From contig JAKORA010000058.1 of assembly GCA_029778075.1 (NCBI GenBank), forward strand, positions 1 to 38,592: a stretch of 38,592 nucleotides of DNA, written 5' to 3'. Made by a program: the position numbers and the translations under genes. Source of the stretch: Bacillota bacterium (lineage in GTDB: Bacteria; Bacillota; Dethiobacteria; DTU022; UBA8154). Positions 2,130 to 19,419 of this stretch are shown piece after piece. The notes beneath the pieces were generated by a model. The model saw nothing but the letters and a program-made list of their open reading frames with translations, had not been told where the DNA came from and searched no databases. Numbering within the stretch: position 1 is the stretch's first letter; every line of letters starts with the position of its first letter.

Positions 2130-3581
2130 TTGCCTCGCGAATTTAGACAACGTTATTTACGCCTCCTGCCTGCAGTAGACAGGATACTGCTGGAGAAGAG
2201 CCTGGCAGGGATCGAAGAAGAGGTTCCACGCGCCCTGATAGTGGAAGCAGTCAAAGAAGTTTTGGCGGAAAAAAGGTCCGTTATTTCCAGGGCTGCCGCT
2301 GAAAAGGAACTGGAGCTTTTGGATGTTTCCTCCCCTGCATTGGCTGGAGAGGCCCTGGAAAGAATAAAAGAGAAAATGGAATATAATCTGCGGCCTGTTT
2401 TTAATGCAACCGGTGTACTTCTGCATACAAACCTTGGACGCGCTCCCCTGGCCGCGGCGGCTGTTGAAGCTGTTAAAGGGGTTGGCGCTTCATTCAGCAA
2501 CCTGGAGATTTCGCTGCACAGCGGAAAGAGATCTTCACGCTATGAGCATGTAGAGGAACTTCTCTGCCGGCTGACAGGAGCGGAAGCGGCGCTTGTTGTT
2601 AATAATAACGCCGCGGCGGTTTTTTTGGCGCTCAACTCATTAGCGGCCGGGAAAGAAGTTATTGTTTCCAGGGGAGAGCTGGTGGAAATAGGAGGCTCTT
2701 TTCGCCTGCCGGAGGTCATGGCCTCCAGCGGAGCGTCTCTGGTGGAGGTGGGTACAACGAACAAGACTTACACCGGGGACTATAAGAAGGCCATAGGTGA
2801 AAAAACAGCCTTGCTGCTCAAAGTCCATACCAGCAACTTTAAAGTCCTGGGCTTTGCCTCTGCAGTTTCCGCTTCCGCGCTGGTAAGGTTGGGCAAGGAC
2901 TACGGGCTCCCTGTGATGGAGGATGTGGGAAGCGGTGTCCTGGTGGACCTCTCCAGGTACGGGCTTCCTTATGAGCCAAGGGTTCAGGATTCTGTAGCCG
3001 CCGGAGTCGATGTGATTACCTTTAGCGGGGATAAGCTTCTGGGAGGACCTCAGGCCGGCCTGATTATCGGCAGGAAAAAATATATCGACCGGATCAAGAG
3101 CAACCAGTTAATGAGAGCCCTGCGCGTGGATAAGCTCACGGTGACGGCCCTGGAGGCAACGCTGCGCCTTTACCTCGATGAAAAGAAAGCATTGCGCGAA
3201 ATCCCCGTCTTGCGCATGTTGACCGTACCTGGTGAGGTTTTGCAGCGTCGGGCTGAGGCGCTGGCCGCAGAGCTCAGAAAAAAACTCGCGGGGGAATGGG
3301 AGATCGATATTCTTCATGAGAAATCCAGGGTGGGAGGCGGTTCGCTGCCTTTGGTTTCTCTTCCCAGCAGCCAGATAAGCCTGGGGCTAAAGGGAGTAAA
3401 TGCCGGTGAATTGGCGCAAAGGCTGCGCAAGGCCAAACCGCCTGTCATAGCCCGTGTCAAGAGACAGAGAGTGCTGCTGGATCTACGTTCTCTGAGGGAG
3501 GAAGATGATAAAGAGCTTCTGGAAACAATTGTCCGTACCTTCAGCAGTAGCGGGATGGGAAAAAACGGGGGTGGCAGCTAA
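2130..3581 (+). CDS. selA: L-seryl-tRNA(Sec) selenium transferase
   Basis: SelA converts seryl-tRNA(Sec) to selenocysteinyl-tRNA(Sec) using selenophosphate, as a PLP-dependent cytoplasmic enzyme of fold type I. The protein is 483 residues, against about 460 in E. coli. The N-terminal helical domain that contacts the tRNA spans roughly residues 1-75. A conserved NATGVLLHTNLGRAPL stretch follows, then GAEAALVVNNNAAAV. The PLP lysine lies in FSGDKLLGGPQAG near residue 302. The track start at 2058 has no ribosome binding site. The TTG at 2130 is preceded by AAGGAAGGGGGAGAG, and starting there gives PREFRQRYLRLLP, the normal SelA N-terminus. selB follows after 3 bases, so the two are co-translated. 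Together with selC they form nearly the whole decoding set; selD is not in the window. Confidence 0.96.
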   Translation: MPREFRQRYLRLLPAVDRILLEKSLAGIEEEVPRALIVEAVKEVLAEKRSVISRAAAEKELELLDVSSPALAGEALERIKEKMEYNLRPVFNATGVLLHTNLGRAPLAAAAVEAVKGVGASFSNLEISLHSGKRSSRYEHVEELLCRLTGAEAALVVNNNAAAVFLALNSLAAGKEVIVSRGELVEIGGSFRLPEVMASSGASLVEVGTTNKTYTGDYKKAIGEKTALLLKVHTSNFKVLGFASAVSASALVRLGKDYGLPVMEDVGSGVLVDLSRYGLPYEPRVQDSVAAGVDVITFSGDKLLGGPQAGLIIGRKKYIDRIKSNQLMRALRVDKLTVTALEATLRLYLDEKKALREIPVLRMLTVPGEVLQRRAEALAAELRKKLAGEWEIDILHEKSRVGGGSLPLVSLPSSQISLGLKGVNAGELAQRLRKAKPPVIARVKRQRVLLDLRSLREEDDKELLETIVRTFSSSGMGKNGGGS

Positions 3582-3584
3582 ACA

Positions 3585-5477
3585 ATGATTATCGGGACAG
3601 CAGGGCATGTGGATCATGGGAAGACGGAGCTTATTAAGGCGTTGACAGGGGTTGATACCGATCGTTTAAAAGAGGAAAAAGAAAGAGGCATTTCCATTGA
3701 TATCGGTTTTGCTCCTTTTTACCTCCCCGGCGGAAGACTGGCAGGAGTCGTTGATGTTCCCGGCCATGAAAAGTTTATCCATAATATGCTGGCAGGTATA
3801 GGCGGGATAGATCTGGTTCTGATGGTAGTAGATGCCACGGAGGGGGTTATGCCGCAAACCAGGGAACACCTCGATATCCTGGAGCTGCTCGGCATTTTAA
3901 AGGGATTGGTTGTTATTACCAAGATTGATCTTGTTGACGAGGAATGGCTGGAGATGGTCGTGGAGGAAGTGAAGGAGAGCTTCAAGGGGACGTTCCTGGA
4001 GGGTGCTCCCCTGCACCTTGTTTCTTCTGTTACGAAAGCAGGGATTCCGGAGCTAAAAAAGGAGATTGCCGCTATGGCCGTTTCCCTTGCAGCCAAGGAT
4101 GCTGATGCACCCCTGCGCATTCCCGTAGATCGCGTCTTTACCATTGCGGGGTTTGGGACCGTTGTTACCGGCACGATTATCAGCGGAACAGTAAAAACCG
4201 GAGAGATTGTGGAAGTAGTCCCTCCGGGTAAAGAGTTCAGAGTAAGGGGCCTTCAGGTTCACGGAGAAGCGGTGGGGGAGGCCTCTGCCGGGCAGCGAGT
4301 CGCGGTAAACCTCTCCGGGTTGGAGAAAAGGGAAGTCTTGAGAGGCAGTGTGGTAGCAGCACCGGGCTATTTTCGCCCGACCCGCTTTCTGGATACCAGG
4401 TTAAAACTTCTTTCCTCCGCCCACAAAACTCTGGTAAATTTGTCACCCGTCCATTTTTATCTGGGTACTGCCCGGGTCGTTGCCAAGCTGTTGCTGCTGG
4501 GCTGTGACGAACTTGCTCCCGGAGAAGAGGGCTTTGTTCAATGCCGCCTGGATAGGCCGCTTGTGGCACGTCGGGGCGATCGCTTCATTATCCGTTCGTA
4601 TTCTCCGATGGTTACTATCGGAGGCGGAGTAGTCCTGGATGAACATCCTCCGCGCCATAAGAGGTTTAAGCCGGGAGTTCTGGAAAAACTGGAGGATTTG
4701 CACAAAGATGACCCGCTGCCTTTTGTCATGCAGAAGCTTGAGGAGAGCAGGGGGGCTACCCTGGCGGAGCTGGCGCAACTCCTTAAAATGGGGTTAGCGC
4801 CGCTAAGCGACCTGCTGGAACGGGCACGAAAAGAAAACAAAGTTGTTTTAATCGGTGATTACTATGTTACTGCCGGGAACATTGATGCATGGGGTACGGC
4901 GCTTTTAAAGGAACTTGCCCGTTTTCATAGTGAAAAGCCTCTCTGGCCAGGGATGCATAAAGCGCAACTCAGCGGAATTTTCCCGCGCAAAATTACAGGG
5001 CGTGCCTACGATTCGCTTCTTGATTATTATAAGCAAAAAGGCCTTATTGAGATAAAAGGTGACATAATCTCCAGGAAAGATTTTATCCCCCGACCCACTG
5101 CAATGCAGGAGCAGAAAATAGAAGAAATACTGCGCTTCTTTATACAGGGGGGGATTACTCCCCCGTCGTTGAAGGAGTTATGGAGCTCTCTGAGCTTGAA
5201 GAAAGAGGAAGGGGAAAGCTATCTGGAATACCTGATTAATAAGGGTTCAATTGTTAGGGTTAGCGAAGAAATATTCTTGCACAGCGAACCGTACGCCAAA
5301 TGCCTGGATATATTAAAAGAACATTTCCGGGCCAACAAGAGTATCAGCCTGGCCCAGTACAGGGATCTGCTGGGGAGTTCACGCAAGTATGCTCAGGCAC
5401 TTCTGGAACATTTTGACAGCTGCAAGTTTACCCGGCGCCTGGGTGACGAAAGGGTGCCCTGGAAACTCCCCGTGTAA
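3585..5477 (+). CDS. selB: Selenocysteine-specific elongation factor
   Basis: SelB is a GTPase that delivers Sec-tRNA(Sec) to ribosomes stalled at a UGA next to a SECIS hairpin. The protein is 630 residues, normal for bacteria. The N-terminal third is EF-Tu-like: G1 GTAGHVDHGKTEL at residues 3-15, a switch I region with ERGISIDIGFA, G3 DVPGHEKF and G4 TKID. Domains II and III follow to about residue 340. The last ~250 residues form a chain of winged-helix domains that bind the SECIS RNA; a typical unit is LAELAQLLKMGLAPLSDLLER. The start ATG lies 3 bases after the selA stop and uses the GGGGGTGG at the selA end as ribosome binding site. No transcription terminator is clear after it. The next gene is on the opposite strand. 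Confidence 0.96.
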   Translation: MIIGTAGHVDHGKTELIKALTGVDTDRLKEEKERGISIDIGFAPFYLPGGRLAGVVDVPGHEKFIHNMLAGIGGIDLVLMVVDATEGVMPQTREHLDILELLGILKGLVVITKIDLVDEEWLEMVVEEVKESFKGTFLEGAPLHLVSSVTKAGIPELKKEIAAMAVSLAAKDADAPLRIPVDRVFTIAGFGTVVTGTIISGTVKTGEIVEVVPPGKEFRVRGLQVHGEAVGEASAGQRVAVNLSGLEKREVLRGSVVAAPGYFRPTRFLDTRLKLLSSAHKTLVNLSPVHFYLGTARVVAKLLLLGCDELAPGEEGFVQCRLDRPLVARRGDRFIIRSYSPMVTIGGGVVLDEHPPRHKRFKPGVLEKLEDLHKDDPLPFVMQKLEESRGATLAELAQLLKMGLAPLSDLLERARKENKVVLIGDYYVTAGNIDAWGTALLKELARFHSEKPLWPGMHKAQLSGIFPRKITGRAYDSLLDYYKQKGLIEIKGDIISRKDFIPRPTAMQEQKIEEILRFFIQGGITPPSLKELWSSLSLKKEEGESYLEYLINKGSIVRVSEEIFLHSEPYAKCLDILKEHFRANKSISLAQYRDLLGSSRKYAQALLEHFDSCKFTRRLGDERVPWKLPV

Positions 5478-6484: not shown

Positions 6485-7615
6485 ATGAATACAGAACTGC
6501 AGAGTTTTATCCAGAAATATGATTTACTAGGCTGCGTTCAGTGCGGAAGATGTACCGGTGGCTGCCCGGTTACTGTACGGACCAATTTAAATGTCCGCCG
6601 CTTTGTTTATGATGCAATCGACCAGGATGCGCTCGATGAACTGGCCAAATTGCCGGAAATATGGGACTGCACCGCCTGCAATACCTGCGCCGTCAGATGC
6701 CCCAAAGGTTTGAAACCTGTAGAGGTGCTGATAGGATTGAGGAATATTCTCGTAGAGAGCGGTGCTGTGCAGCCGACGGTCAGGGATGCCCTGGAAAGCG
6801 TCTTTCGTGAAGGCAATCCCTGGGATAAACCCCGGGCTACCCGCTCTGATTGGATGCAGGGGCTGGAGGTAAAAATTGCTGAACCTGGCGAAAGAGTAGA
6901 AAACCTTATTTTCGTTTGCTGCACCATTGCTTACGATCCAAAGGTGCAGGTGACAGCGAAAAACCTGGTTAAGATTTTAAACAAGTCCGGAGTTGATTAC
7001 GGTTTCATCGGGGACAGCGAGACCTGCTGCTCCAGCGAGGTGCACAACCTGGGAGAAGAGGGCCTCTTTGAAATGATGATAGAGGATAACACAGAGCTGC
7101 TGAACAGTTATGATGCAGCCAGGCTTGTCACCATCTCGCCACACTGTTACTCCACTTTTAAGAACCAGTATCCCGGCTTAAAAGCGGAGGTCATTCACTA
7201 TACTCACCTGCTTAAAGAAATCCTGGAAGAAAATAAGCTGGAACTTCAAGGTGAATTTCCTGAAAAGATCGTTTTTCATGATCCCTGTTTCCTGGGTAAA
7301 CAAAACGGCGTCTTCGAAGAGCCGCGCTATATCCTGGGCCGTATTCCGGGAGCGGAGATTGTTGAGTTTGAGCGCTCAAAGGAGCGCAGCCTCTGCTGCG
7401 AAGGAGGCGGCGGCAAGATGTGGGTCGAGTCGGAGTCCCGTTTGGAACGCCTGGCAGAGGTGAGAGCCAAAGATGCCAAAGCGCTGGGGGCAAGTATTCT
7501 GGCGGTAGCCTGTCCTTTCTGTGTTTTGACACTGGACGACGCCGTCAAAGCCAAGGGCTTTGAGGAAGAAATGCGCGTCGCAGAGATCCTTGAAATTATC
7601 GGGGAACTGGTTTAA
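6485..7615 (+). CDS. HdrD-like fused HdrC/HdrB iron-sulfur protein
   Basis: This 376-residue cytoplasmic protein fuses an HdrC-like ferredoxin part with an HdrB-like part carrying two cysteine-rich CCG domains. The ferredoxin part has two 4Fe-4S motifs: C17/C20/C23/C27 in CVQCGRCTGGC and C62/C65/C68/C72 in CTACNTCAVRC. The first CCG unit has FVCCT, ETCCSSE and SPHCYSTF; the usual first Cys of its last CxxC is Ser. The second has HDPCFLGK, SLCCEGGGGKMW and ACPFC, which is complete. There are no membrane helices, unlike the membrane HdrDE and Etf:quinone relatives. ATG 6485 is preferred over 6479 because GCGAGG lies seven bases before it. It heads an operon with etfBA and hdrA, so it probably passes electrons between Etf and HdrA. 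The direction of flow is inferred. Confidence 0.85.
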   Translation: MNTELQSFIQKYDLLGCVQCGRCTGGCPVTVRTNLNVRRFVYDAIDQDALDELAKLPEIWDCTACNTCAVRCPKGLKPVEVLIGLRNILVESGAVQPTVRDALESVFREGNPWDKPRATRSDWMQGLEVKIAEPGERVENLIFVCCTIAYDPKVQVTAKNLVKILNKSGVDYGFIGDSETCCSSEVHNLGEEGLFEMMIEDNTELLNSYDAARLVTISPHCYSTFKNQYPGLKAEVIHYTHLLKEILEENKLELQGEFPEKIVFHDPCFLGKQNGVFEEPRYILGRIPGAEIVEFERSKERSLCCEGGGGKMWVESESRLERLAEVRAKDAKALGASILAVACPFCVLTLDDAVKAKGFEEEMRVAEILEIIGELV

Positions 7616-7750
7616 ATTTGCAGACCTCTTCTTTTACTGGCATTAATGTACCAAGAAGGAGGGGATAGCTTAAAATTAGATGGATAAAGGAAGCTGTCGT
7701 GAAGTGAAATTATCTTTTAAAAAACCTGAGTTGTAGGAGGTGGAAGCCTT

Positions 7751-8539
7751 ATGAAAACTTTTGTTTGTATCAAGAGAGTGCCGGATACTTCGGAAGCAGA
7801 GGTAAAAGTGGACGCTACGGGCAAGGATGTTGACAGCAGCAGGTTTTCTTTTGATATAAATGATGCTGACAACTATGCCGTAGAAGAAGCTGTGCGTATT
7901 AAAGAGGCTAAAGGAGGAACCGTGCAGGTCGTTTGTTTGGGACCCCAGGATGCCGATGTAATGATCCGTATGGCTCTGGCCAAAGGCGGTGACAGTGCTG
8001 TAAGGATCGACGATCCCCGGATTAATGTCCTGGATCCCCTGAAAGTAGCTAAGGTTTTAGCCGCTGTTGTCAAAGGCCAGGAATTTGACCTGGTATTGAC
8101 AGGGTGTATGGCCAACGACGATGGTAATATGGCCGTCGGGGTAGCCGTGGCGGAGGAGCTGGGCGTCCCGCATGCTGCCATGGTGAAAAAACTGGAAATC
8201 GGAGACGGAAAGGTAAAAGCTTACAGGGAGCTGGAGGGCGGTATCTCCGAAGTAGTGGAGATTGACTTGCCGGCGGTTATTACTATCCAGACCGGGATCA
8301 ATGAGCCCCGCTATGCACCGATCAGGGGTATCAGGGAAGCCCAGAAGAAAGAGCTTAAAGTGTTGAAACTGGAGGATCTGGGGCTTGCAGAAAGCGATGT
8401 TAATGCAGACAGCTCCCTGGTCGAACTGCAAAAGCTCTATATTCCTGAGGTAGTCTCCCACGCGGAAATAATCGAGGGCGAACCCGAGGAGAAAGCGGAG
8501 ATTATGGCTACCAAGCTGGTGAAAGGAGGGCTGCTCTAA
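7751..8539 (+). CDS. etfB: Electron transfer flavoprotein beta subunit
   Basis: This 262-residue protein has the usual ETF-beta length and fold. The N-terminus KTFVCIKRVPDTSEAEV is typical. Nucleotide-binding segments include SFDINDADNYAVEEAVR near residues 37-53 and VLTGCMANDDGNMAVGVAVA near residue 115. The VITIQTGINEPRYAPIRGI stretch is the family signature in the last third. EtfAB carries electrons between acyl-CoA dehydrogenases and another acceptor; some forms bifurcate. ATG 7751 follows TAGGAGGTGG. etfA begins one base after its stop. No acyl-CoA dehydrogenase gene is in the window, so the donor enzyme must be encoded elsewhere. Whether this Etf itself binds a second, bifurcating FAD cannot be decided by eye. 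Confidence 0.94.
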   Translation: MKTFVCIKRVPDTSEAEVKVDATGKDVDSSRFSFDINDADNYAVEEAVRIKEAKGGTVQVVCLGPQDADVMIRMALAKGGDSAVRIDDPRINVLDPLKVAKVLAAVVKGQEFDLVLTGCMANDDGNMAVGVAVAEELGVPHAAMVKKLEIGDGKVKAYRELEGGISEVVEIDLPAVITIQTGINEPRYAPIRGIREAQKKELKVLKLEDLGLAESDVNADSSLVELQKLYIPEVVSHAEIIEGEPEEKAEIMATKLVKGGLL

Positions 8540-8540
8540 A

Positions 8541-9515
8541 ATGGGAGATGTATTTGTTTTAATGGAACACCGTCAAGGAACATTGCGTGATGTTTCACTG
8601 GAGATGCTTACCAAAGCTTCTGAAGTAGCAGGACAATTGGGCGGAGAAACGGTTGCGGTCCTCATCGGCAGTGGTGTTGACTCTTTTGCCGAGAAGGTGG
8701 CCGGTTACAGCGATAAGGTTTTGTATGTCGACGATCCACTTTTTGCCGACTATAACTCTGAAAAATACCAGAGGGTCCTGGTGGAGTTGATTAAGCAGTA
8801 CAACCCCGGGCTTGTGATGATCGGTCACACTACCCAGGGTGTTGACCTGGCCCCGGCCCTGGCCGTGGAAATGAACCTGCCCTTTGTCACAGACGTTATT
8901 GACATAGAATTTGTCGACGGTAAGCCACAGCCGGTACGCCAGTATTACCAGGGCAAGGTCAATGCCAACTTTGCCTTCAAAGGAGAGCCTCCTTACCTGA
9001 TTACTTTCAGGGAAGCTACTCTGGAGGCTGGCGAGCCCTCCAAGCAGGGGAAAGTGGAAAAGGTAGAGTCGCCTTTAAAAGAGGATATCGGCTATCGCCG
9101 GTTTATAGAGTATGTGGAAGCTGAAGTCGGAGACGTGGATATTACCCAATCGGAGATCCTGGTTGCTGTCGGCCGGGGAATCAGAGAGGATAAGAACATG
9201 GCCATGATCGAGGACCTGGCCAAAGTACTTAAAGCCGACATCTGCGGCTCCCGTGCGGCGACAGACGCAGGATGGATACCTCATGACCGCCAGGTGGGCA
9301 CCTCCGGTAAAACGGTTAAGCCCAAGCTCTATATTGCTATCGGGATTTCCGGCGCATTCCAGCACCTGGCCGGGATGAAGGGAGCCAAAACCATTGTGGC
9401 TATTAACAAGGACCCCGATGCTCCGATCTTTACAGTGGCTGATTTCGCCATTATTGACGACCTTTTCAAGGTGGTCCCCAAACTGACCGAGAAGCTGAAA
9501 GAGCTGCGGGGTTAA
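8541..9515 (+). CDS. etfA: Electron transfer flavoprotein alpha subunit
   Basis: This 324-residue protein pairs with EtfB. Residues 1-190 form the variable N-terminal domain. The C-terminal FAD domain is clear: [12 protein letters not shown] near residue 210, then [39 protein letters not shown] and [18 protein letters not shown]. These include the Arg and Ser/Thr residues that hold the FAD in all ETF-alpha proteins. The ATG lies one base after the etfB stop (TAA-A-ATG). A ribosome binding site, AAAGGAGGG, sits inside the end of etfB. hdrA starts 49 bases later with its own GGAGG, so all three are likely in one transcript. Confidence 0.94.
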
Positions 9516-9564
9516 TTTAAAAAGACATCAGCAGTTACTTTTTGTTGGAGGATGAAAAAAAGCA

Positions 9565-11565
9565 ATGAACAACAAACCCAAAATTGGTGTGTATGTCTGT
9601 CACTGCGGAATTAACATTGCCAAAACGGTGGATGTTGATGCCGTTACAGAGTTTGCCTCTCACCTGCCCAATGTCAAGGTGGCGCGCAATTACTCCTATA
9701 TGTGCTCTGACCCCGGACAGCTTCTCATCAGGGAAGATATTAAAAATGAAGGATTAAACCGCGTGGTGGTGGCCTCCTGTTCCCCCCGCATGCACGAGTT
9801 GACTTTCCGCAAAACTCTGGCGGAAACAGGACTCAATCCTTATTACCTGGAAATGGCCAATATAAGGGAACAGTGCTCCTGGGTGCATGAAGATCGCGAG
9901 AGGGCAACGAGCAAGGCCAAAAAGCTGGTGGCTTCCGCTGTATCTAAGGTACGGTTGCTGGAGCCCCTGCAGGAAAAAGAGGTGGATGTGGAACCGGCCA
10001 CTCTGATTATCGGTGGAGGTATCGCGGGAATCCAGGCTGCCCTGGATATTGCCGAGGCCGGGTTTAAAGTTTACCTGGTAGAGAAGACTCCATCTATCGG
10101 CGGCAGGATGTCCCAACTGGACAAAACCTTCCCCACCCTGGACTGCTCCGCCTGCATCCTTACACCAAAAATGGTGGATGTGGCTGGTCACCCCAATATC
10201 GAGCTCTTTACCTATTCCCAGGTGGAAGATGTCTCCGGTTACGTGGGCAACTTTGATGTAAAAGTGCGCCGGAAAGCGCGCTATGTCGATATGGACAAGT
10301 GTACCGGCTGTGGCGCCTGTGCACAGGAATGCCGTCTGGCCGGCCGGATCCCCAACGACTTTGATGCGGGGATGGGAAAAAGAGGCGCCATTTATCTTCC
10401 TTTCCCACAGGCTGTCCCGGCCAAATATACTATTGATTCAACGCGCTGTCTCTTCCTGACCAGGGGCAAGTGCGGGAAATCGCCCAAATGTGTGGATGCC
10501 TGTGCCGCCGGTGCCATTAACTTTGAACAAAAGGACGAGATTGTGGAGTTCAAAGTGGGCGCTATTATCGTGGCCACCGGTTTCGATGTTTTTGACGCCT
10601 CCCGGAAGCCCGAGTACGGTTACAACGACTACGAAAACGTTATAACCGCGCTGGAGCTGGAGCGCCTGGTATCAGCCTCCGGCCCCACAGGAGGCAATAT
10701 TGTCATCGGTACGGGAGATAACGCCTTTGTCCCCAAAGAGGTGGCTTTTATCAGCTGTGTCGGTTCCCGTGATAAAAGCGTGGGGAACGAGTACTGCTCC
10801 CGTGTATGCTGCATGTATACGGCGAAGCTGGCCCACCTGGTCAAGGAGAAAATCCCGGAAGCAAATGTCAGGGTTTATTACATGGATGTCAGGGCTTTCG
10901 GTAAGGGTTTTGAGGAGTTTTATGACCGTGTGCGCCGTGAGGGGGTCCGCTATATCCGCGGCAATCCCTCCGAAATATTCAAGCGCGGCGACAAGCTGGT
11001 TATCAAAGCGGAAAACACTCTTACGTCGACCCCCCTGGAAGACGAAGTGGATCTCGTGGTCCTGGCGGTAGGGCTGGAGCCGCGTAAAGATGCCCGGGAG
11101 ATAATCGATCTGCTGCGCCTGTCGCAGTCGGCAGACCGCTTTTACCTGGAGGCGCATCCCAAGCTTGCTCCTGTGAATACGGCAACCGATGGCGTTTTCC
11201 TGGCCGGAGTCGCCCAGGGTCCCAAGGATATCCCCGATACTGTTGCTCAGGCCAAGGGTGCGGCTTCTTCCGCCCTGGTCCTGCTCTCCAGCGGGAAGGT
11301 AAAGATTGGGGCTCAAATTTCCTTCGTCAACGAGGCAACCTGCAGGGGCTGCGGCTTCTGTGTGGAGATCTGCCCGTACGGCGCTATAGAGCTTGTAACG
11401 GTAAACCGCATGGGACATCCGGTTTCCGTGGCCAGGGTAAACGAAGCTCTGTGTAAGGGCTGCGGCGCCTGCGCAGCCGGCTGTCTCTCCGGCTCTATCC
11501 AGCAAAAATCCTTCATGGATAGGCAGATACTGCCGCAAATTGCAGTACTGGGGGGTATGAGATGA
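9565..11565 (+). CDS. hdrA: HdrA, flavin subunit of a heterodisulfide-reductase-like complex
   Basis: HdrA carries the FAD where flavin-based electron bifurcation occurs in Hdr complexes. The protein is 666 residues, the usual size. Residues 1-130 form the N-terminal Cys-rich domain (GVYVCHCGINIA, YMCSDPGQ, VVASCSPRMHE). The FAD fold begins near 148 with IIGGGIAGIQAALDIAEAG, followed by GGRMSQLDKTFPTLDCSACI. An inserted ferredoxin region has CTGCGACAQEC and CLFLTRGKCGKSPKCVDAC. The C-terminus has two more 4Fe-4S motifs, CRGCGFCVEICPYG and CKGCGACAAGC. All positions are Cys; no in-frame TGA (Sec) is used, although Sec forms exist in methanogens. The stop overlaps the start of the MvhD-like gene (ATGA), which points to tight co-translation. 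Confidence 0.95.
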   Translation: MNNKPKIGVYVCHCGINIAKTVDVDAVTEFASHLPNVKVARNYSYMCSDPGQLLIREDIKNEGLNRVVVASCSPRMHELTFRKTLAETGLNPYYLEMANIREQCSWVHEDRERATSKAKKLVASAVSKVRLLEPLQEKEVDVEPATLIIGGGIAGIQAALDIAEAGFKVYLVEKTPSIGGRMSQLDKTFPTLDCSACILTPKMVDVAGHPNIELFTYSQVEDVSGYVGNFDVKVRRKARYVDMDKCTGCGACAQECRLAGRIPNDFDAGMGKRGAIYLPFPQAVPAKYTIDSTRCLFLTRGKCGKSPKCVDACAAGAINFEQKDEIVEFKVGAIIVATGFDVFDASRKPEYGYNDYENVITALELERLVSASGPTGGNIVIGTGDNAFVPKEVAFISCVGSRDKSVGNEYCSRVCCMYTAKLAHLVKEKIPEANVRVYYMDVRAFGKGFEEFYDRVRREGVRYIRGNPSEIFKRGDKLVIKAENTLTSTPLEDEVDLVVLAVGLEPRKDAREIIDLLRLSQSADRFYLEAHPKLAPVNTATDGVFLAGVAQGPKDIPDTVAQAKGAASSALVLLSSGKVKIGAQISFVNEATCRGCGFCVEICPYGAIELVTVNRMGHPVSVARVNEALCKGCGACAAGCLSGSIQQKSFMDRQILPQIAVLGGMR

Positions 11566-11993
11566 ACGAGCAGTTTGAACCCAACGTAGTAGCCTTCTTA
11601 TGTAACTGGTGCTCCTATGCAGGAGCCGACCTTGCAGGGACCAGCAGAATACAGTATCCGACAAATCTCAATGTCATCAGGGTGATGTGTAGCGGAAGGG
11701 CTAACCCGCTTTTTGTGATGAACGCTCTGCAGCAGGGTGCAGACGGGGTTTTGATCTCCGGTTGCCATCCCGGTGACTGTCATTATATGGAAGGCAACTT
11801 TTACGCTCGCCGCCGCTTTACCCTGATGAAAGAACTCCTGGAGTACGTGGGAGTGGAACCCGGCCGCTTCAACATGAGCTGGGTCTCCGCCTCGGAGGGC
11901 AGCAAGTGGAAAGATGTAGTGCAGGAAGTGGTCGAAAAAGCGAAAGAGGCCGGGCCGTTTGAGCAATTCCGGCGGAACAAGATCAACTGGTAG
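11562..11993 (+). CDS. MvhD/FloxD-like 2Fe-2S electron-transfer subunit
   Basis: This 143-residue protein of the methyl-viologen-reducing hydrogenase delta family connects an electron input module to HdrA. The cluster ligands are in FLCNWCSYAGAD near residues 12-23, RVMCSGR near 42-48 and SGCHPGDCHYMEGN near 67-80. The length is normal for a stand-alone MvhD. It overlaps hdrA by 4 bp. Here no NiFe hydrogenase subunits follow; instead the next three genes are Flox-like, so FloxD is the better functional name. It would receive electrons from the FloxB/FloxC iron-sulfur proteins. Confidence 0.92.
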   Translation: MNEQFEPNVVAFLCNWCSYAGADLAGTSRIQYPTNLNVIRVMCSGRANPLFVMNALQQGADGVLISGCHPGDCHYMEGNFYARRRFTLMKELLEYVGVEPGRFNMSWVSASEGSKWKDVVQEVVEKAKEAGPFEQFRRNKINW

Positions 11994-12007
11994 AGGAGGA
12001 GGATCGC

Positions 12008-12991
12008 TTGGTAGACCTGGATAAATTAAGAAATGTAGCCAAAGAGACCGTCTCCCGTGATGATGTCAAGTATCTTATCGGCTGGAGGCAGGGCACTTAT
12101 GGCTTCAGGGTGTCACCGTACTTTATAAAAGAACCGGAGGAAGCAGAAAAGCTAATCTTTTCACCCCTTTGTACCAATAACCTGGCGACCTATCTCGTAC
12201 TCACGGAAAAACTTCCGCTGCCCCGGGGAGTAGAACCCGATAGCCGTAAAATTGCTCTAATGGTTAAGGGCTGTGACAGCCGTGCCGTTGTACAACAGTT
12301 AATCGAACAGGGCATTAAAAGGGAAAGCGTGCTTCTTATTGGCTGTCCCTGTGAAGGGGTAATCGACTTAAAAAAGGTGGAAGAGAAATTTCCCCACCAG
12401 CCGGCGCCCGTAGAGGCCCGGTGGAACAACGGAAAAATTGTTTTTCACCTGCCTGATGGGGATAAGGAGTTTCCCAAAGAGGAAGTCGTGGCTGAAAAAT
12501 GCCTTACCTGCCGCTATCCCAATCCTGTTATGACCGATGTGATGCTCTGGGAAGAGGTTCAGACTTGGGGTAGCGATGAATATGCAGATGTCAAGGAACT
12601 GGAGGCCAAAAGCCCGCAGGAACGTTGGTCCTTCTGGGAGGATAAATTTTCCAGTTGTATAAGGTGCTATTCCTGTCGCAACGTTTGCCCCATGTGCTAC
12701 TGTGAAGACTGTATACTGGATAGGCTGAATCCGCAGTGGATCTTTCGTTCCAACAATATTTCCGAGAACACGGCCTTCCATCTGGCCCGGGCCTTCCATC
12801 TGGCCGGGCGTTGCGTAGAATGCGGGGAATGTCAAAGGGTTTGCCCTGTAGGGATACCTTTAATGAAGTTGAACAGAAAGCTTGCCAAAGAAGTCAAAGA
12901 AAAATATGAGTATATCCCCGGGCTTGATCCTGAGTCGAAACCGCTCCAGGCCAGCTACCGTCCGGATGATAAAGAAGACTTCATTCTCTAG
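12008..12991 (+). CDS. FloxC-like 4Fe-4S protein with FrhB-like N-terminal part
   Basis: This 327-residue protein has N-terminal features (MVKGCDSRAV, LLIGCPCEGVIDL) resembling the beta-subunit family of F420-reducing hydrogenase and formate dehydrogenase. Near residue 168 is KCLTCRYPNP. A C-terminal ferredoxin part follows with CIRCYSCRNVCPMCYC near 218-233 and CVECGECQRVCPVGIP near 268-283. Such proteins sit in the flavin oxidoreductase (Flox) module linked to HdrA. The TTG start is chosen for the AGGAGGAGG nine bases before it, 14 bp after the MvhD-like stop. The gene name is by cluster position and domain content, not by alignment. Confidence 0.82.
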   Translation: MVDLDKLRNVAKETVSRDDVKYLIGWRQGTYGFRVSPYFIKEPEEAEKLIFSPLCTNNLATYLVLTEKLPLPRGVEPDSRKIALMVKGCDSRAVVQQLIEQGIKRESVLLIGCPCEGVIDLKKVEEKFPHQPAPVEARWNNGKIVFHLPDGDKEFPKEEVVAEKCLTCRYPNPVMTDVMLWEEVQTWGSDEYADVKELEAKSPQERWSFWEDKFSSCIRCYSCRNVCPMCYCEDCILDRLNPQWIFRSNNISENTAFHLARAFHLAGRCVECGECQRVCPVGIPLMKLNRKLAKEVKEKYEYIPGLDPESKPLQASYRPDDKEDFIL

Positions 12992-13002
12992 AGGTGGGTG
13001 CT

Positions 13003-14022
13003 ATGGATACTAAAAAGTTGAGTAAAGATAAGTGGGGCGATTTTATCGCCGTGCTTGGTGCACAAAAAAAGCTGTATACCCCTCAAAAAGAGGGGGAAAG
13101 CCTCAGGTTTAAGCCTGTTGCTGCGGGAAACCAGGTTAATCTGGATTTCTCCAATACGACAGTACCGCCTAAAAGCGTTCTCTTTCCCCAGACGGAGACA
13201 CTATACCGGTTTGAGCAGGGTAGTACCGCTATCAGTCTTCCGGAGGAGGCGGGCGAGGCGGTAATTTTGGGTATCAGACCCTGTGATGCCCGGGCCATGG
13301 CCATTGTGGACAGTGTTTTTTCCTGGGATGTAGACGATCCTTACTATCTCCAAAGGCGTGAGAAGACGGCCCTCATAGGACTCTCCTGCCGGGAGCCCGG
13401 CGTTAACTGTTTTTGTACTTCCGTCGGGGGCGGCCCGGCCTCTACAGAAGGATTGGATATCCTTTTGACAGACCTGGGAGAAGCCTATCTAGTGCAGATC
13501 CTTACTGAAAAGGGCGAAAATATTAAACTCTCCACCCAGGAACTGCTGCAAGATGCCGCGGAGGAGGATGTAAAAACGGCAGAGAAGCTCTCCGGGGAGG
13601 CCGCCTCCAGGATCAGCAGGAGTATTGAGCCCGACGGCATCCCGGAAAAGCTGCCGGAACTGTGGGAAAGCCCGCTTTGGAAAGATTTTTCCGATTCCTG
13701 CCTGGGATGCGGAACCTGCACCTTCCTCTGTCCGACCTGTCACTGTTTTGATATTCAGGACGAAATGGAGGGTCTGGAAGGGCGCCGGTGCCGGATGTGG
13801 GACTCCTGCATGTTTGCGGAATATACCCTGCATACCTCCGGGCACAATCCACGTCCTTCACGCCGTGAACGCGTGCGCAACAGGATTAACCACAAGTACT
13901 CCTATTATGTAAACAACTTCGGGAAAATTGCTTGTGTAGGTTGTGGGCGGTGTATAGATCTCTGCCCGGTCAACATCGATATTCTTGACATTTTATCACA
14001 GGTTGTTAAGGAGGCAATATGA
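13003..14022 (+). CDS. FloxB-like 4Fe-4S dicluster protein (sulfhydrogenase beta / AsrA family)
   Basis: This 339-residue cytoplasmic protein resembles the beta subunit of sulfhydrogenase and anaerobic sulfite reductase subunit A. The N-terminal part has GIRPCDARAMAIVD near residue 90 and LSCREPGVNCFCTS near 125. The C-terminal part has CLGCGTCTFLCPTCHCFD near 227-244, RMWDSC and CVGCGRCIDLCPVNIDI near 304-320. The track start is GTG 12994, but AGGTGG at 12992-12997 places the start at ATG 13003. It follows the FloxC-like gene by 11 bp and overlaps the FloxA-like gene by 4 bp. Together these would carry electrons from the FAD/NAD subunit to the MvhD-like protein. Confidence 0.83.
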   Translation: MDTKKLSKDKWGDFIAVLGAQKKLYTPQKEGESLRFKPVAAGNQVNLDFSNTTVPPKSVLFPQTETLYRFEQGSTAISLPEEAGEAVILGIRPCDARAMAIVDSVFSWDVDDPYYLQRREKTALIGLSCREPGVNCFCTSVGGGPASTEGLDILLTDLGEAYLVQILTEKGENIKLSTQELLQDAAEEDVKTAEKLSGEAASRISRSIEPDGIPEKLPELWESPLWKDFSDSCLGCGTCTFLCPTCHCFDIQDEMEGLEGRRCRMWDSCMFAEYTLHTSGHNPRPSRRERVRNRINHKYSYYVNNFGKIACVGCGRCIDLCPVNIDILDILSQVVKEAI

Positions 14023-14867
14023 ACGAGAACGGAAATCCCTATAAACCTGAAATAGCAACTGTCGAGGACACCTGGTACGAAACAGCCGGCGAACGCGCTA
14101 TCAAAACCTTCAAAGTTGTCCTTGACGATGAAAAGGCAAGGGAAAGCTGGAGTCACCGTCCCGGACAATGCGCCATGATCGGTGTGCTCGGAGTAGGGGA
14201 GAGCATGATTTCCATTTCCTGTTCTCCCACAGAGGGTAAATTCCTCCGGTTTTCCGTCATGCGTATGGGTAAAGTTACCCAGGCCCTGCACGAGCTTGAA
14301 CCCGGTGACAAGATGACAGTACGTGGTCCTTACGGGAACAGCTTTCCCGTGGACGATTGGAAAGGGAAGAATATCCTTACAATCGGCGGTGGTATCGGCC
14401 AGGCTCCTTTACGCCCAATTGTCGAGTATGTCCGGGCCAACCGCGGTGACTATAAGGACCTGACCCTTATTTACGGTGCCCGGACTTCCGGAGATCTTTG
14501 CTTCAAAAAGGAATTTGAGGCCATGAGAGAGTCCGGTGATGTAAACTGCCATCTTTCCATTGACGTCCAGGAAGAAGGCTGGCCCCATTATGTAGGATTC
14601 GTCCCATCCTTGCTGATGGATGTTAATCCTTCCCCGGAAAATACCATAGCCATTACTTGCGGGCCGCCGATTATGATCAAGTTTGTGCTGGAGAACCTTA
14701 AAAAGCTGAATTTCGCCGACGAGCAGATTTATACAACCCTGGAGAACAGGATGAAATGCGGATTTGGCAAGTGCGGGCGCTGCAATGTAGGCAACCTTTA
14801 CGTTTGCAAGGACGGGCCTGTATTCAGCTATGCCACCCTTAAAAATGTACCGGAGGCCTTTGCCTGA
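14019..14867 (+). CDS. FloxA-like NAD(P)H:FAD oxidoreductase with 2Fe-2S centre
   Basis: This 282-residue protein of the ferredoxin-NADP reductase type belongs with the sulfhydrogenase gamma / AsrB / PyrK-like group. The FAD segment is HRPGQCAMIGVLG near residues 46-58 with MISISCSP. The NAD(P) segment is ILTIGGGIGQAPLRPIVEY near 117-135. The last 40 residues bind a 2Fe-2S cluster through MKCGFGKCGRCNVG and a later YVCKDGPVF, as in dihydroorotate dehydrogenase subunit PyrK. It is the last gene of the cluster and the only nucleotide-binding entry point. It therefore likely exchanges electrons with NAD(H), or possibly NADP(H). Sulfite reductase is unlikely because no AsrC-like siroheme subunit is present. 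Confidence 0.88.
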   Translation: MNENGNPYKPEIATVEDTWYETAGERAIKTFKVVLDDEKARESWSHRPGQCAMIGVLGVGESMISISCSPTEGKFLRFSVMRMGKVTQALHELEPGDKMTVRGPYGNSFPVDDWKGKNILTIGGGIGQAPLRPIVEYVRANRGDYKDLTLIYGARTSGDLCFKKEFEAMRESGDVNCHLSIDVQEEGWPHYVGFVPSLLMDVNPSPENTIAITCGPPIMIKFVLENLKKLNFADEQIYTTLENRMKCGFGKCGRCNVGNLYVCKDGPVFSYATLKNVPEAFA

Positions 14868-14949: not shown

Positions 14950-15078
14950 ATATTGATATTTCTCAATTAGTCCAAGCAGACGAATAAAATGCGGAATAAT
15001 TATGATACCTTTTTCTTCTGTATTAATACTGCGCAAATGGGAAACATCTATACTATTAACAGGAAAGGGGTATGTGCT

Positions 15079-15567
15079 TTGGAACATTTCGGTCAGGTGA
15101 TCGAGCTAACCGGAAAAGACAAAGCCCTGGTCAAGGTACGGCAGCACCATGCCTGCGGTAATTGCGGGGCTTGCGGGCGTGTTTTCGGCGATCCTGAACA
15201 GCGGGATACTTTCATGGTGGAGGTTAGTAACCCTGTCGGTGCCAAAAAGGGGCAACTCGTTCGTCTGGAAATTGGGGAGCGGGAAATGCTTCTTGCCGCT
15301 GTGCTTCTTTATCTGGTTCCTCTTGTGGGTTTGCTTATCGGCTTGTTTGCCGGCCGGGGGTTGGCTATAAGTTACGGGTTGGGCGGAAATCCCGATTTTT
15401 GGGGTTTGGGCTTAGGGCTTGCGCTGATGGTTTTAGTTTTCATTTTGTTAAGAGCACAGGAGGTAAAACTGGCCAAAGGGAGCCGCTTCAAGGTAGCAAT
15501 AACCGCTGTGGTTGGCGCTGATGAGATCCCACCTGAATTATGTGTAACAAACTCTGCCGGGGAATAA
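15079..15567 (+). CDS. RseC/SoxC-family membrane protein
   Basis: This 162-residue protein of the RseC (SoxR-reducing system) family has an N-terminal cytosolic part with HACGNCGACG near residues 26-35, a cysteine cluster typical of the family, and EVSNPVGAKKGQLVRLEIGE. Two membrane helices follow near residues 77-98 and 112-132. The track start at 14989 adds residues with no ribosome binding site. TTG 15079 is preceded by AGGAAAGGGG at eight bases and gives the standard length. In many anaerobes RseC-like genes accompany electron-transport complexes such as Rnf. Here it follows the Flox module after a hairpin, so a link to redox balance at the membrane is plausible but unproven. Confidence 0.82.
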   Translation: MEHFGQVIELTGKDKALVKVRQHHACGNCGACGRVFGDPEQRDTFMVEVSNPVGAKKGQLVRLEIGEREMLLAAVLLYLVPLVGLLIGLFAGRGLAISYGLGGNPDFWGLGLGLALMVLVFILLRAQEVKLAKGSRFKVAITAVVGADEIPPELCVTNSAGE

Positions 15568-15773: not shown

Positions 15774-15962
15774 AGGTGGGGTAGAGGTGCGGCAGGCAAT
15801 GAGTAGGCACGGTGAAAGCAGGGACTTGATGAATCGTGCGGAAAGGTGCCGCCGCCGAAGTTTTTAGCTTTTCCCGCAAGCTAAAAGCTGGTTCTTCAGT
15901 GAACAACTGATGAACTGTCACCGGGGAGAAGCCCTTTTTCCCGGTGGAGCGCTATCTCACTA
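15774..15962 (+). promoter_or_regulatory. Lysine riboswitch (L box) aptamer
   Basis: The conserved lysine-riboswitch blocks are present in order: AGAGGTGCGGCAGGCAATGAG, GAAAGGTGCCGCCGCCGAAG, GCTGGTTCTTCAGT, ACTGTCACCGGGG and GGTGGAGCGCTATCTCAC. The P1 stem forms between GTGGGGTAG (15776-15784) and CTATCTCAC (15952-15960), nine pairs including two wobbles. It lies directly before lysA, the last enzyme of lysine synthesis, which fits. Lysine binding should stabilise P1 and favour the terminator downstream. Confidence 0.93.
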
Positions 15963-15991
15963 AGGGCACGAGAGGTTTACAGTGCAGTTTC

Positions 15992-16030
15992 AAACGACTG
16001 GCGGTTAAACCTGTTGGTCGTTTTTTAATT
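15992..16030 (+). terminator. Lysine-responsive intrinsic terminator
   Basis: AAACGACTGGCGG pairs with CCTGTTGGTCGTTT around a TTAAA-type loop and is followed by TTTTTTAATTTTTT. The upstream AGGTTTA (15973-15979) can instead pair with TAAACCT (16006-16012), which would break the terminator stem and act as antiterminator. This is the expression platform of the L box. Confidence 0.8.
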
Positions 16031-16049
16031 TTTTCCAGGAGGTTATAAT

Positions 16050-17345
16050 ATGATCCTGTCGGGGACAATGCAGATTAACAGTAAACAGCACCTGGAAATA
16101 GGCGGGTGTGATACCGTTGCTCTCGCTGAGGAGTTTGGCACCCCCCTCTACGTTATGGATGAAGAGCAGGTAAGAGAAAATTGCCGCCGGTATCTGCAGG
16201 CCATGCAGAAAAAATATCCCCGGGGGAAAATTCTTTATGCCGGCAAAGCTTTCCTGGTCCTGGCTATGGCAAAGCTCGTTGCAGAGGAAGGGCTGGGTCT
16301 GGATGTTGTTTCCGGAGGGGAACTGTACACGGCTCTAAAGGCCGGTTTCCCGGCAGAGCATCTTTATTTTCACGGCAACAATAAAAGCAGGCAAGAGTTG
16401 CTGGAGGCCCTGGAGGCGAAAATCGGACGAATTGTCGTCGACAGCTTCTCCGAGCTGCAGGAGCTGCAGGAGCTCTCCGCAAGCAGGCGACAAAAAGTAG
16501 ATGTTCTTTTACGGGTCAAACCGGGTATAGAAGCGCATACCCATGATTATATCCAAACTGGCCGGGAAGATTCCAAGTTTGGGCTCGGTTTTTCCGAGGC
16601 CAGGGAGGCAGTTCGCCAGATCCTGTCTGCAGCCCCCTATCTTGAGCTCAGGGGATTTCACTGTCATATCGGTTCCCAGATTTTCCAATTGGAGCCCTAT
16701 CGCCTGGCAGCAAAGGCTATGCTGGATTTTATGTCGGAGGTAAGGGCAGAAACCGGTTACGTGGCTTCGGAGCTGGACCTGGGCGGCGGGCTGGGTATTC
16801 GTTACACGCAGGGTGACAATCCTCCTTCCATTGAAACTTTTGTGGAGACTGTGGCTGCCGCGGTGCAGGATGAGGCGGAGCAAAGAAAATACCCCCTGCC
16901 TGAGCTTCTTTTGGAGCCGGGGCGTTCGATTACCGGTGAAGCTGGTATTACTCTGTACCGTGTGGGAGTGATTAAGGAGGTGCCCGGGGTCAGGTGCTAT
17001 GTATCCGTCGATGGCGGGATGATGGATAATATTCGGCCGGCCCTGTACCAGGCACGCTATGAAGCAATGATTGCCAATAAAGCCCTGCAGGAACCGGTGA
17101 AGACGGTTACTATAGCAGGGAAAGCATGCGAGTCAGGCGATCTTCTACTAGTGGACACTTGTCTGCCCCCTGTGGAAAAAGGCGATCTTTTGGCTGTTTT
17201 CAGCACCGGAGCTTACTGCTATGCTATGGCCAGCAACTATAACCGCAACCCCCGGCCGCCTGTAGTTTTTGTGCGCAACGGAAAACCCAGGGTTGTTGTT
17301 CGCCGTGAAACTTACGGTGATCTTTTAACCCTGGAGGAACTTTAG
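16050..17345 (+). CDS. lysA: Diaminopimelate decarboxylase
   Basis: LysA removes CO2 from meso-diaminopimelate to give lysine; it is a PLP enzyme with an alanine-racemase-like barrel. The protein is 431 residues. The PLP lysine is in ILYAGKAFLVLA near residue 56. Further marks are GLDVVSGGELYTALKAGF, the phosphate-binding ELDLGGGLGIRYTQ, LLEPGRSITGEAG and the active-site CESGDLL near residue 355. The ATG follows CCAGGAGG by nine bases. It is the first gene after the lysine riboswitch, with dapF 20 bp downstream. Feedback control by lysine at the RNA level is therefore expected for this gene and those after it. Confidence 0.96.
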   Translation: MILSGTMQINSKQHLEIGGCDTVALAEEFGTPLYVMDEEQVRENCRRYLQAMQKKYPRGKILYAGKAFLVLAMAKLVAEEGLGLDVVSGGELYTALKAGFPAEHLYFHGNNKSRQELLEALEAKIGRIVVDSFSELQELQELSASRRQKVDVLLRVKPGIEAHTHDYIQTGREDSKFGLGFSEAREAVRQILSAAPYLELRGFHCHIGSQIFQLEPYRLAAKAMLDFMSEVRAETGYVASELDLGGGLGIRYTQGDNPPSIETFVETVAAAVQDEAEQRKYPLPELLLEPGRSITGEAGITLYRVGVIKEVPGVRCYVSVDGGMMDNIRPALYQARYEAMIANKALQEPVKTVTIAGKACESGDLLLVDTCLPPVEKGDLLAVFSTGAYCYAMASNYNRNPRPPVVFVRNGKPRVVVRRETYGDLLTLEEL

Positions 17346-17365
17346 CCCGGAGGGAGGAGTGTGCG

Positions 17366-18229
17366 GTGATCGAGTTTACTAAAATGCACGGGTTGGGTAA
17401 TGATTTTATTGTTATTGACAATAGGGACGGAGGCCTGGCAGCTGACTACCTCTCCGGTATAGCTCCCGTTCTCTGCCGGAGACATTTCGGTATCGGAGCT
17501 GACGGTCTGGCTGTTTTAAGCAGTTCTTCGCAGGCTCCCTTTCGCATGCAAATTTTTAATGCGGACGGCAGTGAGGCGGAGATGTGCGGCAACGCGATCC
17601 GTTGCCTGGCCAGGTATGTTTGGGACAGGGGCTTCATTAAAGAGCAGACTTTTGCTTTTGAAACTGCCGCCGGGATTAAAGAGATAAATCTGCTCATACG
17701 CGGCCGGGAGGTTGAGGCCGTAAGGGTAGAGATGGGCTCGCCAATTCTGGAAAGCGACAAGATCCCTTTGCGCGGCCCTTCCCGCCGGGCTGTGGATGAA
17801 AAAATTAGGCTGGGGAATGAGGAGCTGCTTTTTACGGCTGTCAGTATGGGAAACCCTCACTGCGTGATTTTTATGCCTGCCCTGGAAGGAGTGCCCTGGC
17901 AGAGTTGGGGAGAGGCGTTGGAGCATAACCCCCTCTTTCCCAATAGGACTAATGTGGAATTTGTGGAAGTATTGAGTAGAGACAGGATAAAAGTAAAAGT
18001 TTGGGAGCGGGGCGCGGGCGCCACGCTGGCCTGCGGCACGGGGGCCTGCGCGGCGGTAGTGGCCGGCGTTTTAACCGGACGCCTGGGAAGCGCTGTCCGG
18101 GTCGATCTTCCTGGCGGCTCCCTGCAGATAAACTGGGAAAAGGACGGTAAAGTGTATATGGAAGGGCCTGCCGAAGAAGTTTTCAGCGGCAGGATCGAGA
18201 CGATTAAACTTCTGGAGGAGGCGAGGTAA
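17366..18229 (+). CDS. dapF: Diaminopimelate epimerase
   Basis: DapF converts LL- to meso-diaminopimelate without a cofactor, using two cysteines. The protein is 287 residues. The N-terminal FTKMHGLGNDFIVID is diagnostic. The first catalytic Cys is in AEMCGNAIRCLARY near residue 73 and the second in LACGTGACAAVVAG near residue 220. The GTG start follows GGAGGGAGGAG. The gene starts 20 bp after lysA and ends one base before the TTG of dapL, so the three form one translational block. Confidence 0.96.
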   Translation: MIEFTKMHGLGNDFIVIDNRDGGLAADYLSGIAPVLCRRHFGIGADGLAVLSSSSQAPFRMQIFNADGSEAEMCGNAIRCLARYVWDRGFIKEQTFAFETAAGIKEINLLIRGREVEAVRVEMGSPILESDKIPLRGPSRRAVDEKIRLGNEELLFTAVSMGNPHCVIFMPALEGVPWQSWGEALEHNPLFPNRTNVEFVEVLSRDRIKVKVWERGAGATLACGTGACAAVVAGVLTGRLGSAVRVDLPGGSLQINWEKDGKVYMEGPAEEVFSGRIETIKLLEEAR

Positions 18230-18230
18230 G

Positions 18231-19406
18231 TTGGAGCGTCTTGCTGAGCGTATCCGTTTGCTGCCCAGGTATCTTTTTGCCGAGATTGACAAGAAAGTAA
18301 AGGCGGCGCAAGAAAAGGGAATTGACGTTATAAAGCTGGGGATCGGTGACCCTGATTCACCCACACCGGATTATATTGTCAAGCGCATGCAGGAGGAGGT
18401 AGCCAAACCCAGAAACCATACGTACCCGCCGGATGAAGGATTGAAGGAATTCAGAGAGGCGGTGGCGGACTATTACCTGCGACGGCATGGCGTGGAGCTG
18501 GACCCCCAGAAAGAAATTGTTCCGCTTATCGGCTCCAAGGAGGGAATTGCGCATATTTCTTTTTGTTTTACTGATCCCGGCGATGTAAACCTGGTTCCGG
18601 ACCCGGGTTATCCCGTTTACGGAATTGGCACGCTTTTTGCCGGAGGAGTTCCTCAGTATATGCCTTTATTAAAAGAGCGGCGCTTTCTGCCTGATTTGCG
18701 GAGTGTGCCGGTGGAAGCCGCCCGCCGGGCCAAGCTGTTATTTCTTAATTATCCCAACAACCCAACCGGCGCTGTGGCAACCAAGGAATTTTTTACCGAA
18801 GTTATAGATTTTGCCAGGGAGTACAATCTCCTTGTCTGTCATGATGCCGCCTATAATGAGATTGCCTTTGACGATTACCGCCCCGTCAGTTTCCTGGAGG
18901 TGCCCGGGGGAAAAGATGTGGCCATTGAATTCGGCTCTCTCTCCAAGACTTTTAATATGACCGGCTGGCGGATCGGCTATGCCGTGGGTAACAGTACGGC
19001 TGTGGAAGCGCTGTACCGCTTCAAAACCAATGTTGATTCGGGCCTTTTTCAGGCTATCCAGTATGCCGGTGTGGAAGCTTTTACCAATCCGCAGATGGGT
19101 CCTTTCCTGGAAAAGTTGCGGGAGCTGTACCGCAGAAGGAGAGATATAGTGGTCAGGGCTCTGCAGGAGGCGGGGTGGGACCTGGAAGCTCCCAAAGCAA
19201 CTTTTTATGTTTGGGCCCCCGTCCCCCCAGGCTACAGCTCGCAGGAATTTGTTACTTATTTGCTGGAAAAGACGGGTGTCGTGGTAACGCCCGGGAGCGG
19301 GTTCGGGAAATTTGGAGAGGGGTATTTCCGTATAGCCCTGACCGTGAACGAAGAGCGATTACAGGAAGCCATGGAACGCATTAAAAATGCCATCAGGTTC
19401 AGCTAG
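18231..19406 (+). CDS. dapL: LL-diaminopimelate aminotransferase
   Basis: DapL makes LL-diaminopimelate from tetrahydrodipicolinate in one step, bypassing the succinylase or acetylase branches. The protein is a 391-residue class I aminotransferase. The N-terminal LGIGDPDSPTP and HTYPPDEGLKEFREA are typical of DapL. FLNYPNNPTGAVA and the PLP lysine in GSLSKTFNMTGWRIGYAVGN near residue 240 are present. The start TTG lies one base after the dapF stop, with GGAGGAGGCGAGG before it. Its place between dapF and asd in a lysine-riboswitch operon favours DapL over alanine or aspartate transaminases of the same family. dapA and dapB are not in the window. Confidence 0.9.
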   Translation: MERLAERIRLLPRYLFAEIDKKVKAAQEKGIDVIKLGIGDPDSPTPDYIVKRMQEEVAKPRNHTYPPDEGLKEFREAVADYYLRRHGVELDPQKEIVPLIGSKEGIAHISFCFTDPGDVNLVPDPGYPVYGIGTLFAGGVPQYMPLLKERRFLPDLRSVPVEAARRAKLLFLNYPNNPTGAVATKEFFTEVIDFAREYNLLVCHDAAYNEIAFDDYRPVSFLEVPGGKDVAIEFGSLSKTFNMTGWRIGYAVGNSTAVEALYRFKTNVDSGLFQAIQYAGVEAFTNPQMGPFLEKLRELYRRRRDIVVRALQEAGWDLEAPKATFYVWAPVPPGYSSQEFVTYLLEKTGVVVTPGSGFGKFGEGYFRIALTVNEERLQEAMERIKNAIRFS

Positions 19407-19419
19407 CGGCTCCAATAAA

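Follow-up and report, generated by a model that had tools for sequence, protein, structure and literature searches.

The window analysed here is the 38,592-nucleotide contig JAKORA010000058.1 (contig 259 of a metagenome-assembled genome, MAG, of 2.39 Mb in 409 contigs, 87% complete; assembly GCA_029778075.1) of a Bacillota bacterium of the Dethiobacteria, and we studied in it an eight-gene module that places an electron-transferring flavoprotein (Etf) beside an HdrA protein and a Flx-type NAD(P)H unit. The eight collinear genes lie on the + strand at 6485–14867 in the order HdrD-like, EtfB, EtfA, HdrA, MvhD/FlxD, FlxC, FlxB and FlxA, and their positions and families agreed with the original prediction made from the DNA. 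The spacing down the module is 135, 1, 49, −4, 14, 2 and −4 bp; the overlaps and gaps of 1–50 bp that had been described fit most of these junctions, but the hdrD–etfB gap of 135 bp is longer. This gap is 0–150 bp in relatives and the etfA–hdrA gap 40–134 bp, and the overlaps of HdrA with MvhD and of FlxB with FlxA (−4 bp each) are kept. No terminator-like site was found in the two larger gaps (hdrD–etfB and etfA–hdrA). The predicted hdrD start at 6485 is preferred over the start of the longest open reading frame (6479) because a GAGG resembling a ribosome-binding site is well spaced for it and several orthologs start at the same MN.

The first gene (6485–7615, + strand) encodes a 378-amino-acid protein with two cubane [4Fe-4S] motifs and two CCG domains (Pfam CCG and Fer4_8), the first CCG motif (CCG1) being degenerate and the second (CCG2) canonical. 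Its closest solved structure by sequence is mycobacterial EtfD (9ojn, E 1e-48), and the match covers only the soluble part of that protein (chain 409–738), the transmembrane heme b domain being absent; no homolog of EtfD length was found in 45 relatives. A fold search also ranked EtfD first (E 1e-18, vs 3e-7 for HdrB), with only the CCG part carrying weight, as the AlphaFold model had a mean predicted local distance difference test score of 70.6 and a poor N-terminal iron-sulfur (FeS) part. By sequence the N-terminus resembles HdrC (5odc_C, E 4e-15). Six residues, His222, C270, C306, C307, C345 and C348, are invariant in 83 distinct sequences. His222 aligns with EtfD His583, and C270, C306, C307 and C345 align with the remaining ligands of EtfD cluster D2 (alignment checked up to C709), while C348 corresponds to EtfD C712 by motif. 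The EtfD-type CCG2 cysteine set with its His ligand (C637, C672, C673, C709, C712 and H583 in M. smegmatis) is present in HdrD, and the first Cys of the CxxC of CCG1, Cys581 in EtfD, is replaced by Ser220. His583 renders the non-cubane cluster of EtfD non-catalytic, and the ETF-oxidising proteins FadF and DgcB are without the cysteines of cluster D1 (PMC13083937). The invariant EtfD-type His ligand and Ser220 in CCG1 thus argue that HdrD oxidises or reduces Etf and not a disulfide. HdrD is more like EtfD, an ETF oxidase, than like HdrB. The label "HdrD-like" given earlier missed the EtfD-like nature of the subunit and its replacement of HdrBC.

The next two genes encode EtfB (7751–8539, + strand; PF01012) and EtfA, the alpha-FAD subunit (8541–9515, + strand; PF01012 and PF00766, with EtfA relatives in the PDB). 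Bifurcating EtfBs are marked by three motifs, DGDTAQVGP for the beta-FAD, RXFXG for NAD, and SPT (PMC9232219), and by an invariant Gly123 (PMC12630350). Analysis of the module EtfBs showed that DGDTAQVG and R-x-F-x-G were missing from all 116 copies (87 distinct) and SPT from all 21 aligned copies, and that the Gly123 position was Asp, Tyr, Asn or Phe in 116/116, as fits the bulky residue that marks canonical ETFs there. Other EtfBs of the same class were used as positive controls and do carry the bifurcation motifs, so the motif test works in this class. The best PDB match of EtfB was the M. methylotrophus ETF of trimethylamine dehydrogenase (1o94_C), and in the tree, in which the reference branches are long, the module EtfBs formed one clade (95/94) apart from the bifurcating EtfBs and nearest to M. 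methylotrophus ETF, grouping with the human and M. methylotrophus EtfBs. Judged by these motifs, the module Etf is canonical and non-bifurcating, with predicted AMP binding. It had been suggested that HdrA and perhaps Etf would give two bifurcating flavin sites in one complex, which does not agree with an EtfB that has none of the three motifs and groups with canonical ETFs; since Etf is without them, the flavin of HdrA is the single candidate for bifurcation.

HdrA (9565–11565, + strand), which would hold this FAD site and the ferredoxin port, belongs to the HdrA2 family (NF040770, E 1e-269) and matches the HdrA chain 5odc_A (E 2e-247); its flavin lysine, Lys421 (K409 in the HdrA of 5odc), is invariant in 98 sequences, as is every Cys apart from C104. 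MvhD/FlxD (FlpD/MvhD; 11562–11993, + strand; PF02662, E 4e-53), the putative [2Fe-2S] link between Flx and HdrA, has five invariant Cys. Then follow a FlxC-like FeS subunit with a TTG start and Fer4 motifs (12008–12991), a FlxB-like FeS subunit (12994–14022; PF17179; sulfhydrogenase beta 9nez_B, E 1e-54) and a FlxA-like FAD/NAD(P)H subunit (14019–14867; NAD_binding_1 and DHODB_Fe-S; sulfhydrogenase gamma 9nez_C, E 3e-66), all on the + strand. Some relatives also hold a paralogous cluster of HdrB-HdrC-HdrA-MvhD-FlxC-FlxB-FlxA, in which the FlxC-like subunit has its collinear homolog. The module contains neither an HdrB with two catalytic non-cubane CCG motifs nor a separate HdrC. Because the paralogous clusters share its tail, the module may be regarded as an HdrBCA-Flx complex with HdrBC swapped for the EtfD-like HdrD and EtfBA. 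With the HdrA of the window, the HdrAs of other modules share 72% identity or more and the paralogous HdrAs 51–56%. No second Flx set was found in the genome of the window (FlxB search with one match, in a MAG 87% complete), which would leave HdrD as the only HdrBC equivalent for HdrA. The paralogous HdrA genes of four relatives (G003, G004, G009 and G011) each have one in-frame TGA and possibly encode selenocysteine HdrAs. Upstream of the module the window carries tRNA-Sec, selA and selB (206–298 and 2058–5477), so the organism should make selenoproteins. Another locus of the same genome (L198, G000:C121, 899–9606) has an AOR-family gene, a CCG HdrD-like gene, fdhD, an HdrA-like gene (912 amino acids) and a FlpD gene in which an in-frame TGA likely encodes selenocysteine; this cluster is of the AOR-Hdr type.

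Conservation of the full gene order in relatives, which the original prediction had proposed to check, was strong. Among 40 loci of relatives retrieved by FlxB search, 37 had the full collinear set and the other three were cut by contig ends. All eight genes stood in order in 49/49 named loci whose DNA extends 8.6 kb or further downstream of hdrD (36 from Bacillota of the Dethiobacteria/DTU022 type and 13 from Actinomycetota of Geothermincola/Solincola and their kin), and etfBA and hdrA-flx, whose separation was looked for, were never apart in these loci. This conservation is far beyond chance. Apparent splits in four genomes (G012, G040, G046 and G067) were checked or read as contig breaks: hdrA lies 340 bp from a contig end in G012, etfB about 770 bp from one in G040, and in G046 the break is inside flxC. 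Two genomes (G077 and G078) seemed module-free by HdrD, yet they carry module-type HdrA. The Bacillota carriers in the scan of named genomes come from digesters, soda lakes and the subsurface, and the Actinomycetota carriers are Candidatus Geothermincola, Solincola and Geohydrothermomicrobium. The spread across Clostridia and Desulfobacterota that had been proposed was not borne out in the sampled Bacillota. The 399 sampled Bacillota genomes had the module only in Dethiobacteria, with no match at E ≤ 1e-110 in the roughly 385 outside that class, and the module reached Actinomycetota (25/297 sampled genomes). For Desulfobacterota, covered by the whole-collection scan only, none was found among the best 80 save two MAG records named "Desulfovibrio sp." (L149 and L164), whose loci are 69–89% identical to the Dethiobacteria type and which are probably mislabelled bins.

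The presence of the module follows that of acyl-CoA dehydrogenases. Within the class, an acyl-CoA dehydrogenase family was matched in 80 genomes, of which 70 had the module; none of the 18 genomes without such a match did (Fisher 6e-13). Nearly all genomes of the order encode one to many acyl-CoA dehydrogenases, and 56/71 have a single EtfB, which is normally that of the module. Each of the 23 Actinomycetota genomes that carry the module encodes 4–44 acyl-CoA dehydrogenases. In one genome (G086) the module lies 58 bp behind thl-hbd-acd, that is, thiolase, 3-hydroxybutyryl-CoA dehydrogenase (HBD) and acyl-CoA dehydrogenase (ACAD), and the genome of the window has a thiolase-HBD-ACAD-crotonase cluster without an Etf of its own. 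A 97%-complete genome of the same order (G024) has no acyl-CoA dehydrogenase and no module, and it keeps the paralogous HdrA. Gene order, co-occurrence and the adjacency in G086 together bear out the earlier idea of one conserved unit that unites Etf, HdrA and an NAD(H) module and is tied to acyl-CoA metabolism.

We consider it probable, at about two chances in three, that the products of the eight genes form a single soluble complex of the HdrA type, bifurcating or confurcating, whose high-potential arm is Etf and not a disulfide. Canonical EtfAB, through its alpha-FAD, would exchange electrons with the acyl-CoA dehydrogenases of the cell and dock on the EtfD-like HdrD subunit, which would relay electrons to HdrA by way of its non-cubane [4Fe-4S] cluster and its two cubanes. 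The FAD of HdrA would couple this high-potential path to low-potential ferredoxin, the presumed third partner, and MvhD-FlxCBA would connect that FAD with NAD(P)H. The net reaction would be reversible: enoyl-CoA + 2 NAD(P)H + Fd(ox) ↔ acyl-CoA + 2 NAD(P)+ + Fd(red). With potentials of −10 mV for butyryl-CoA, −320 mV for NAD and −420 to −500 mV for ferredoxin, the oxidative direction (confurcation) was computed to cost +40 to +25 kJ/mol under standard conditions and close to nothing at, for example, a butyryl-CoA:crotonyl-CoA ratio of 100:1, NAD:NADH of 10:1 and ferredoxin at −500 mV, so the machine is best viewed as reversible.

Several points weigh against a single Etf-HdrA complex that works on acyl-CoA. 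Gene order is not proof of a physical complex. The counts of module and acyl-CoA dehydrogenase and their Fisher value ignore kinship among the genomes, and clear adjacency to beta-oxidation genes was seen in only one examined genome. The GlcD-type (lactate/glycolate dehydrogenase) family is also enriched with the module, though more weakly. Confurcation is uphill at standard potentials, so the complex may run in either direction, and the finding of only one Etf and Flx set in the genome of the window may partly reflect missing sequence, given a MAG of 87% completeness in 409 contigs.

The operon could instead hold two machines. One would be EtfBA-HdrD, acting as an Etf oxidase in soluble form; the other would be an HdrA-Flx NADH:ferredoxin module of the ordinary kind, working with HdrBC that comes from outside the operon. 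The etfA–hdrA gaps of 40–134 bp would permit separate regulation, and Hdr-Flx exists without Etf in relatives. However, the parts stay together in all 49 informative loci, the module is without HdrB and HdrC, its HdrA is distinct from the paralogous HdrA, no second Flx set was seen in the window genome, and the N-terminus of HdrD is HdrC-like; we think this arrangement unlikely. Etf might also serve a dehydrogenase that does not act on acyl-CoA, such as a GlcD-type lactate/glycolate or an amine dehydrogenase, as would suit the nearness of EtfB to the ETF of trimethylamine dehydrogenase and the GlcD families that are common in the class. That only a small chance is given to this rests on 14 module genomes, including that of the window, which have no GlcD family match, on the lack of any module genome without an acyl-CoA dehydrogenase, and on thl-hbd-acd adjoining the module in G086.

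The other two alternatives concern what HdrD and Etf do. HdrD could be a thiol/disulfide reductase, as in FlxABCD-HdrABC with DsrC, with Etf as an accessory partner; it retains the canonical second CCG motif and an HdrB-like C184, and in several syntrophs that have Hdr-Flx the disulfide partner is not known (PMC6687939). But Ser220 in the CxxC of CCG1 and the invariant His222 indicate the EtfD-type, non-catalytic ligation (PMC13083937), and EtfBA is always present, so a catalytic disulfide reductase is disfavoured and has a slim chance at best. A bifurcating Etf that works with a beta-FAD and NADH would put two bifurcating sites into one complex; in its favour, EtfA is nearest in the PDB to bifurcating EtfAs (CarE, 5ol2). 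The EtfB motifs speak against it, since they are absent, with the Gly123 position substituted throughout, while bifurcating EtfBs of the same class retain them; two bifurcating flavins were rejected on this basis, and we regard a bifurcating Etf as highly improbable.

The single complex with an Etf arm, as preferred here, has known parts. It shares HdrA, MvhD/FlxD and Flx with the NADH:ferredoxin:disulfide complex FlxABCD-HdrABC (Hdr-Flox), including Flx subunits that adjoin hdrA and the order hdrA-mvhD-flxC-B-A in the same bacterial order, but it has EtfD-like HdrD and EtfBA for HdrB and HdrC, and its HdrAs form a distinct group. With the membrane ETF:menaquinone oxidoreductases (EtfD/FadF/DUF224), its best match in sequence and fold, it shares the CCG domains, the motif of a His-ligated non-cubane cluster and the etfBA neighbours; HdrD, however, is without the membrane domain, has Ser220 and C184 in CCG1 where EtfD has C581 and T539, and would pass electrons to HdrA, not menaquinone. 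Bcd-EtfAB, CarCDE and LctBCD fall in the same overall reaction class (acyl-CoA/enoyl-CoA, NAD(H) and ferredoxin), but the bifurcating flavin of the module is proposed in HdrA and not in EtfB, and a canonical Etf can serve many dehydrogenases. An HdrA-MvhD core with an exchanged functional head is also found in BamBC-DEFGHI, where the head is a tungsten benzoyl-CoA reductase. MetVF forms such a head on HdrABC-MvhD (PMC5861303, PMC7325909), unlike the Etf/EtfD-like head of the module. The open literature treats Flox-Hdr and Etf systems separately and gave no description of Etf-HdrA-Flx as a unit, so the combination appears undescribed as far as that literature shows; reviews of HdrA modules may mention it.

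Downstream of the module lies an RseC/MucC-family gene (14989–15567), with a homolog downstream in 33/40 relatives, and then, at 15774–21866, an ordinary lysine operon with a Lysine riboswitch (Rfam) followed by lysA, dapF, LL-DAP aminotransferase, asd and aspartate kinase.

Syntrophic and subsurface metabolism has long posed the question of how the high-potential electrons from acyl-CoA dehydrogenases are reoxidised in anaerobes, and the known answers are membrane ETF oxidases, with reverse electron transport, or Etf bifurcation with a dedicated dehydrogenase. If the proposed complex is true, it would be a third, soluble answer that links Etf to HdrA, with a predicted three-substrate coupling in which HdrA bears the bifurcating flavin and Etf does not bifurcate, and the Etf head would join the exchangeable HdrA heads HdrBC, MetVF and Bam. 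The many acyl-CoA dehydrogenases per genome seem to lean to oxidation. It is possible, at somewhat less than even odds, that the complex acts as an HdrA-based confurcase, in which a canonical Etf pool shared by many acyl-CoA dehydrogenases reduces NAD(P), aided by reduced ferredoxin and wholly in the cytoplasm, and this would take the place of two systems, the EtfD/ETF-QO route in the membrane and dedicated Bcd-EtfAB complexes, in fatty-acid-oxidising Dethiobacteria and in anaerobic Actinomycetota such as Geothermincola. The module may account for the way in which acyl-CoA dehydrogenases are run in many uncultured anaerobes.

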